Positions 17,390 through 17,808 of a stretch of DNA of 64,000 nt are shown one piece after another. The stretch is from Anas platyrhynchos. Lineage: Eukaryota > Chordata > Aves > Anseriformes > Anatidae. The translations under genes and the position numbers were made by a program. The DNA is taken from the NCBI RefSeq assembly GCF_047663525.1, contig NC_092617.1, forward strand, positions 2,546,501-2,610,500, written 5' to 3'. The stretch's first letter is position 1; every line of letters starts with the position of its first letter. The notes under the pieces were generated by a model that made no database searches, was not told the origin of the DNA, and worked only from the letters and a program-made list of their open reading frames with translations.

Positions 17390-17808
17390 CGGTGCAGGGC
17401 ACTCTGCCTGCTGCTCGCCTTCGCCTGACTGTGCACTGCTGCCAACGGTGCTAGAGTAAAATGTGAAGACTGTCTGGATGGCACTGATGAAGCAAACTGT
17501 AACGATGTTATTCAGTGCTCTGGACCTGGCAAATTCAAGTGCAGAAGTGGAGAATGCATAGATATCAATAAAGTGTGTAACCAGCAGAGAGACTGCAAGG
17601 ACTGGGGTGATGAGCCCCTGAAGGAATGCAACATAAATGAATGTGACTGTCCAGCTGGGTTTGACTTTGTAGAAAAGAGAAACTGACTGGAATTGATGAA
17701 TGTCAAAACCCTGGTATCTGTAGTCAAATCTGTATCAACCTGAAAGGTGGCTACAAATGTGAACGTAGCCGTGGCTATCAGATGAATCCTGCTACAGGAA
17801 CTGGGAAA
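17390..17808 (+). pseudogene. VLDLR: Captured host VLDL receptor cDNA fragment, internally deleted
   Basis: Intron-less sequence of the VLDL receptor, the vitellogenin/VLDL uptake receptor of bird oocytes. In order: a signal-peptide-like CRALCLLLAFA segment; a KCE start joined directly to the end of an LDL-A repeat (DCLDGTDEANC); the complete eighth LDL-A repeat (17516-17629; GPGKFKCRSGECID, calcium box DCKDWGDE with Ser changed to Gly); EGF-A reduced to NINEC joined to CDCPAGF; and EGF-B (DECQNPGICSQICINLKGGY, 17695-17757, then RGYQM). Several exons are contiguous, so it came from spliced RNA. Breaks: stop at 17426-17428, stop at 17684-17686 and a 1-nt frameshift before EGF-B. Most LDL-A repeats, beta-propeller, membrane segment and tail are absent. 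Confidence 0.92.

Follow-up and report, generated by a model that had tools for sequence, protein, structure and literature searches.

Spliced host VLDLR and ZNF365 sequences carried by endogenous retroviruses of the mallard

Introduction

How did part of a host receptor message come to lie between the long terminal repeats (LTRs) of a provirus in a bird genome? The question is raised by a 64-kb stretch of DNA of the mallard, Anas platyrhynchos (assembly GCF_047663525.1, contig NC_092617.1, positions 2,546,501 to 2,610,500), in which a provirus contains a piece of the VLDL receptor gene, VLDLR. This whole stretch is called the window here, and coordinates given without a contig label are positions in it. 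Most known cases in which retroviruses captured host genes come from tumour viruses and a few endogenous retroviruses (ERVs). A preliminary description of the window had proposed that a gammaretrovirus-like element took up spliced VLDLR mRNA and that the captured ectodomain might have acted as a secreted ligand or receptor decoy. The account set out below, which we hold as a whole to be very probable, is that spliced VLDLR sequence was captured by a class II-like element, spread with it, and was later taken over by a class I-like ERV. The first step would have been the copying of spliced VLDLR mRNA by a class II-like (beta-like) ERV of an ancestral duck.

The VLDLR piece in the window

The VLDLR piece was aligned at the DNA level with the spliced VLDLR exons of the same genome. 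The host gene, with its introns, lies on contig C35, with exons 1 (signal peptide) to 9 (EGF-B) at 29064818-29074380 and the later exons at 29074789-29078742. The following parts were recognised (CDS, coding sequence):

17390-17469, forward strand: VLDLR exons 1-2 joined (signal peptide); CDS 130-209, 90% identity
17462-17643, forward strand: VLDLR exons 6-8 joined (tail of LDL-A 7, LDL-A 8, start of EGF-A); CDS 1002-1184, 97.3% identity
17637-17799, forward strand: VLDLR exons 8-9 joined (tail of EGF-A and EGF-B); CDS 1238-1401, 92.1% identity
17786-17800, forward strand: 3' junction between VLDLR and viral sequence, at a short shared stretch; the same junction in the 13 loci printed
17665-18441, forward strand: frame open for 259 codons, from EGF-B on into Env (C-terminal part of the surface subunit, SU, gp85-like, then the transmembrane subunit, TM)

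Intron sequence within the segment and a better match to another LDL-receptor gene had both been foreseen as telling against the capture, and neither was found. All four exon junctions in the piece (1/2, 6/7, 7/8 and 8/9) are intronless, the exon 1-2 join being so in other VLDLR copies as well, and with 90-97% identity to the host exons the uptake of a spliced VLDLR message by a retrovirus is borne out. The modules reported earlier for 17390-17808, LDL-A 8 and EGF-B, are indeed those of VLDLR, since in a protein comparison with solved structures VLDLR was the best match both for 17429-17683 (E 2.9e-42, against 5.2e-28 for LDLR) and for 17689-17832 (E 4.4e-20, against 1.7e-16 for LDLR). A random similarity, or one to another gene of the LDL-receptor family, is ruled out by the DNA identity to the host VLDLR exons, as is an assembly chimera by independent loci with their own target duplications and by the same fusions annotated in other duck assemblies; we regard these explanations as practically excluded.

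The piece is less complete than it first appears, comprising the signal peptide, the tail of LDL-A 7, LDL-A 8, the two ends of EGF-A and EGF-B, and it is broken by a stop codon in the signal peptide (17426-17428) and by a frameshift near 17690. Two gaps interrupt it, one covering LDL-A 1 to 7 and the other most of EGF-A; both are situated at repeats of 7-8 bases, as expected for slippage in reverse transcription, by which the elements would have lost these parts. Both outer junctions are also found at short shared stretches, the upstream one within the coding sequence of exon 1, and copy-choice at such sequences on both sides of the cargo may have created them. At the 3' junction the host reads GATCTTGCTACAGGA, locus L013 reads GATCCTGCTACAGGA and the other loci printed whole (10 in all) read AATCCTGCTACAGGA, followed by viral sequence; three further loci, printed from GCTACAGG onward, agree there. 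The viral side of this junction resembles, in a weak match (rve_3, E 0.056), the integrase end found fused to env in the mallard protein P0004, which has no VLDLR.

Intronless exons would also be left by an ordinary processed VLDLR pseudogene in or beside which a provirus had landed. However, no run of A is present at the 3' end of the window piece, from which the 3' half of VLDLR is also absent, in all 13 loci printed the cargo passes downstream into viral coding sequence at one and the same position, and VLDLR and Env share one frame in L013, L020, L027 and others, so that such an origin has next to no probability.

The outer provirus

The provirus that encloses this piece spans 13830-20694 and is delimited as follows:

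13826-13829, no strand: left target duplication, CTTA, 4 bp
13830-14718, forward strand: 5' LTR, 889 bp, of the outer class I-like provirus, found by comparison of the LTR pair
14722-14738, forward strand: primer-binding site (PBS), found by sequence inspection
19786-19803, forward strand: purine-rich stretch preceding the 3' LTR, found by sequence inspection
19804-20694, forward strand: 3' LTR, 891 bp
20695-20698, no strand: right target duplication, CTTA

The LTRs and CTTA duplications that had been noticed earlier were confirmed. Both LTRs start with TG and end with CA, and a 2-bp indel is the sole difference between them. The flanks joined at CTTA are contiguous in paralogous repeats of the same window (best 93.6% over 455 bp, at 35258-35712), and the provirus insertion was therefore precise. 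Class I (gamma-like) marks of this provirus are the 4-bp duplication, to which locus L006 with what looks like 5 bp is an exception, and a PBS that appears to resemble tRNA-Pro. The outer LTR belongs to an abundant family (1652 first-look candidates in the genome, of which 40 were scored). Pfam recognised no gag or pol domains among the 10 window open frames tested, and an Rfam search of the window gave no match.

Two further segments lie inside the provirus:

15988-16320, forward strand: segment in common (87-89%) with the stretch 3' of the Env part in ZNF365-carrying loci among L025-L038
18840-19070, forward strand: putative remnant of another Env TM, from the outer element, by resemblance; no Pfam match

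Degenerate repeats of a GACGAAGACGACAG-like unit occupy 14900-15100, 3' of the 5' LTR and PBS. The window itself is rich in repeats of 0.2-0.6 kb with 62-95% identity in both orientations (for example 10457-11019, 30240-30811, 45051-45619 and 59025-59593), so that the landing site of the provirus is a repeat-rich and perhaps segmentally duplicated region.

Copies elsewhere in the genome

The genome was searched by DNA, where 40 of 504 first-look candidates were scored and the best 8 loci read, and by protein with owl VLDLR, where 57 of 1216 candidates were scored and the best 30 loci read. The 38 loci read (L001-L038) are the top-scored ones, a sample that favours intact and window-like copies. 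Pooling both searches gives at least 89 distinct scored VLDLR places on 24 contigs, the window included; high identity to intronless VLDLR exons at more than one locus had been named beforehand as support for the capture. Contig C34 (16 Mb) holds 26 of the 89 and is possibly a sink for VLDLR elements; we assume that it may be the W chromosome, and the 86-Mb C35, with the host VLDLR gene, would presumably fit Z.

Seven of the 38 loci (L001-L006 and L035) are window-type recombinants, and L007 is partly of this type. An env leader, a linker, VLDLR and Env follow each other in 17 loci (L008-L024), among which the env leader was not found in L015-L018, while 13 (L025-L034 and L036-L038) have the order ZNF365, linker, VLDLR, Env. 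The fullest capture read is L013, where VLDLR CDS 89-1401 is present without gaps (signal peptide, LDL-A 1-8, EGF-A and EGF-B) and in frame with Env. The original cargo may have extended from within exon 1 (signal peptide) to exon 9 (EGF-B), and it would have replaced viral coding sequence, in frame with the C-terminal half of SU and with TM. The earlier idea of the captured ectodomain as a separate secreted product is not upheld, the cargo being fused to Env instead. Two mallard database proteins agree letter for letter with loci read, P0051 with L035 over 460 residues and P0142 with L028 over 902; an AlphaFold model of P0051 had a mean pLDDT of 33, too low for use.

Window-type insertions have target duplications of their own and scarcely diverged LTRs: CTGG and 0 differences in 886 in L005, ATAC and 1 in 890 in L035, GAACG and 1 in 875 in L006. 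L003 has 0 differences in 892, with a damaged 3' end and a duplication that is not clear; L002 and L004 have one flank in common, and their 3' LTR is outside the stretch fetched. Together with the window (0 substitutions in 889), the five LTR pairs of this type (window, L003, L005, L006 and L035) differ by 2 substitutions in total. The captured copies differ from host VLDLR by a silent divergence of about 0.06-0.13. The bird substitution rate is near 2e-9 per site per year, and from it this divergence and the LTR identity yield, as rough estimates, a capture age of the order of 20 million years and window-type insertions well under one million years old.

A second captured host gene

The second gene is ZNF365, to which residues 1-222 of protein P0028 match (71% to Cairina, 55% to chicken). 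The host ZNF365 gene is on contig C6, where its exons were matched to 9751501-9752166, 9742855-9743052 and 9737222-9737467. In L027 and L038, exon 1 and sequence upstream of the start codon are joined to exon 2 with 90-96% identity, the 8.5-kb intron being absent. All 99 candidates were scored, which gave 52 ZNF365 places besides the host gene and distant matches on C4, 38 of them inside frames that stay open for at least 900 codons. Thirteen of the 52 are loci among L025-L038 and eight others were fetched. VLDLR is downstream of ZNF365 in all eight, and an Env query matched after it over 131 residues in three and 28 in four and was not found in one.

Gag, ZNF365, VLDLR and Env form one frame without pol between them. 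Gag before ZNF365 was tested by Pfam in L027 (Gag_p24_C 41.2 bits, cut-off 25.9; Gag_p24 20.6 bits, cut-off 24), and the mallard database entries P0141 and P0142 each have Gag_p24, Gag_p24_C, ZNF365, LDL-A and EGF in one protein. One lineage of the VLDLR elements would have gained spliced ZNF365 mRNA and with it this single frame. Since the copies read have no pol between Gag and Env, a helper appears to be needed, and the chimeric non-autonomous elements would have spread by means of helper proteins. The VLDLR signal peptide is missing in all 13 ZNF365 loci of the first set and in 7 of the 8 of the second.

Two side observations concern this lineage. L078 (C5:19456500-19459000) is a ZNF365 copy that retains the VLDLR signal peptide (CDS 103-209), unlike the 20 others read, and is a possible link between lineages. 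L031-L033 (C2:76497493, 76503365 and 76509237) are three ZNF365-VLDLR copies spaced exactly 5,872 bp apart, a tandem array.

Transfer of the cargo between element types

Which element made the capture is addressed by loci whose own LTRs could be delimited. L042 has identical LTRs of 382 bp and L040 LTRs of 430 bp with 99.3% identity; the target duplications of both are 6 bp if the LTR begins with TG and otherwise 5, and their PBS appears to resemble tRNA-Lys. Both differ from the window in LTRs, PBS and duplication length, yet they have inner segments in common with it. Taken with the Gag pieces of L027, these features appear class II-like. Remnants of such an element are nested in the window:

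16604-16647, forward strand: U5 end and primer-binding region remnant of a class II-like VLDLR element, 89% to L042
16844-17490, forward strand: env leader, signal-peptide-like region and linker from the inner VLDLR element, 81% to L042
17205-17388, forward strand: linker before VLDLR, about 90% to the ZNF365-carrying lineage

The VLDLR-env block of an L042-like element follows at 17462-18352 (97.4%), so that the order inside the window is U5/PBS remnant, env leader and linker, VLDLR-env block. With L042-like remnants nested in this manner, the VLDLR-env block has passed between element types, and to judge from its sequence the window element is a secondary recombinant. A class I-like ERV would have taken over the VLDLR-env block later and spread recently, and the window would hold a broken copy of that recombinant.

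The linker lies between ZNF365 (or the env leader) and VLDLR, is common to the lineages and occupies 1315-1507 in L027. About 9 bases at its start are identical to the captured ZNF365 end. This is also true of the window, where ZNF365 is absent, and the window linker may derive from a ZNF365-carrying ancestor.

That the outer gammaretrovirus-like provirus captured VLDLR mRNA itself, as was first proposed, would fit the position of the VLDLR piece inside its LTRs and the seven of 38 loci built in this way. However, U5/PBS and env-leader remnants of another element type lie upstream of VLDLR in the window, and 30 of the 38 loci, the fullest capture L013 among them, have an inner structure other than the window's. 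Of the original proposal, the retroviral capture therefore stands and the outer provirus is probably not the capturer; we give that role of the outer provirus very little credence. A class II-like element is the more likely capturer.

Several points weigh against the capture by a class II-like element and its later take-over. LTR pairs of a type other than the window's were resolved in just two of the five stretches fetched (L040 and L042), which also leaves some room for the outer provirus as capturer, and no LTR pair was found in the stretches of L039 and L043. In L041 (C40:644500-654400) the neighbours of the VLDLR copies are a window-type LTR and 3' internal end in the opposite orientation. 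The class labels are drawn from Gag family, duplication length and apparent PBS type. The scheme does not account for the linker before VLDLR. A single capture is inferred from the shared junctions, and in the tree described below 9 of the 33 inner branches are open. Finally, the replacement/silent ratios considered below are under the neutral median in all ten copy pairs, none significantly so; there may be mild constraint and hence a function. As a separate observation, the VLDLR elements of L041 sit in a cluster with short tandem repeats.

The Env chimera and its possible role

The Env part matches the Pfam domain Avian_gp85 (cut-off 32.2 bits) with 31 bits in the window, 43.1 in L020, 42 in L011, 43.6 in L027 and 43.6 in P0104, all of these being partial matches. 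The SU-TM cleavage motif is degenerate in 36 of the 38 loci, and in the other two the motif region was not found; with such a motif the chimera is unlikely to drive fusion. Among VLDLR-free relatives, P0006 has a basic cleavage motif and P0004 a degenerate one, and since P0004 lacks VLDLR the loss of cleavage may predate the capture.

The VLDLR-Env chimera might nonetheless be a working surface protein, now or recently, its LDL-A repeats on the Env TM anchor binding lipoproteins, vitellogenin or other VLDLR ligands and serving as a decoy, a tether or a germline-targeting device. The in-frame fusion speaks for this, as do the long open frames kept in many copies, the 38 of 52 ZNF365-type places included, and a degenerate cleavage motif that would keep the receptor part tethered. 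Change is rarer in cysteine codons, at 57 of 1761, than in the remaining ones, at 874 of 10287; when positions are counted the difference shrinks, to 17 of 63 against 134 of 374. The replacement/silent ratios of ten deep copy pairs are 0.32-0.59, all below the neutral medians of 0.62-0.67, but with one-sided P values of 0.055-0.395 change is indistinguishable from neutral in all ten. Comparison with the host gene gives lower ratios, which for L013 and L014 lay under every one of 150 simulations, with 0.047 for L027, 0.073 for L020 and 0.133 for L036; here the neutral spectrum was taken from the data themselves and the constrained host branch is included, for which reason this comparison is not counted as selection on the captured copies. 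Initial replacement/silent counts were discarded for misaligned LDL-A repeats and the next set for a bias from the identity filter, both being replaced by the neutral-control counts given here.

Other evidence tells against a surface role. In 20 of the 21 ZNF365 loci read the missing VLDLR signal peptide would leave the VLDLR part cytosolic, and in five of the eight further ZNF365 places Env was not found beyond its first 28 residues. The degenerate motif in the VLDLR-free P0004 makes it no sign of adaptation to the cargo, and the loci are top-scored ones, among which intact frames are favoured. A working surface protein is the main rival of the passenger reading given below, but seems unlikely to us. 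In a more specific and decidedly improbable form, VLDLR repeats on the uncleaved TM anchor, on cells or particles, would bind yolk lipoproteins or vitellogenin, and particles or RNA would enter the germline by oocyte uptake; if true, this would explain the spread and long persistence of VLDLR cargo in ducks. The substitution patterns lend no strong support to ligand or decoy activity and, given the capture, the cargo is probably now mainly a passenger on a recently active, non-autonomous element.

Other ducks and the ancestry of the capture

VLDLR runs into the same Env sequence in annotated proteins of Anas platyrhynchos, A. zonorhyncha, A. acuta, Aythya fuligula, Mergus octosetaceus and Cairina moschata; the gp85 Env domain was found, among the matches listed (120 of 761), in five Anas entries only. 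In a tree of 36 rows that includes the VLDLRs of an owl, a falcon and two songbirds, the six Mergus copies group together, as do the three Aythya copies, while Anas copies are spread over several groups. The four non-duck bird VLDLRs have no captured copy among them, and mallard VLDLR is placed between these four and the captured copies. The simplest reading of these sequences would be one capture before the duck genera split. In the Anas platyrhynchos protein P0010, an Env signal-peptide-like start leads directly into the VLDLR signal peptide, as if spliced, and a subgenomic message is a possible source of it.

Relation to known systems and meaning

Acute transforming avian retroviruses, such as the erbA/erbB and myb-ets viruses, carry one or two transduced cellular genes. 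The duck elements resemble them in that spliced cellular sequence replaces viral genes and is fused to Gag or Env, with two cellular genes in one genome. Those viruses, however, are recent, oncogenic and exogenous, whereas VLDLR and ZNF365 are inherited and multi-copy in the duck. Tva, the cell receptor of subgroup A avian leukosis virus, has an LDL-A module, and in that avian retrovirus system such modules matter for entry, but Tva belongs to the cell while the LDL-A repeats of the duck elements sit in a viral Env frame.

Closer precedents are the crocodilian ERVs CrocERV31 and CrocERV29, which captured host mRNA for nectin3 and KIT-ligand, respectively (PMC4299795). There, as in the duck, spliced host mRNA encoding a surface protein or a ligand was captured by ERVs and multiplied in the germline, and several copies kept their open frames (PMC4299795). 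The crocodilian elements have nectin3 in place of env, or KIT-ligand situated between pol and env. The duck elements differ in having a receptor ectodomain in frame within Env and a further host gene on Gag, and in having passed the cargo to an ERV with other LTRs. Purifying selection was significant in the crocodilian study (PMC4299795) and is not significant in the duck copies. Betaretrovirus-like ERVs have been described in the duck, chiefly on chromosomes 1 and 2 and the sex chromosomes, in a paper in whose main text the terms lipoprotein, ZNF365, captured and host gene do not occur (PMC11067759). No earlier description of the VLDLR or ZNF365 capture was found in the open-licence literature, where the crocodilian study is the nearest. 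Capture by ERVs has precedents; what is new here is the receptor ectodomain in Env, the second host gene on Gag in the same element, the transfer to an ERV with other LTRs, and the copy number.

For the annotation of duck genomes, these results mean that several 'VLDLR-like' gene models are retroviral fusions rather than receptor genes. For the elements themselves, one ERV family has spliced parts of two unrelated host genes, one of which has been handed to an ERV with other LTRs, and its copies offer a natural series in which the gain of a captured cargo, its trimming at repeats and its passing on can be studied.
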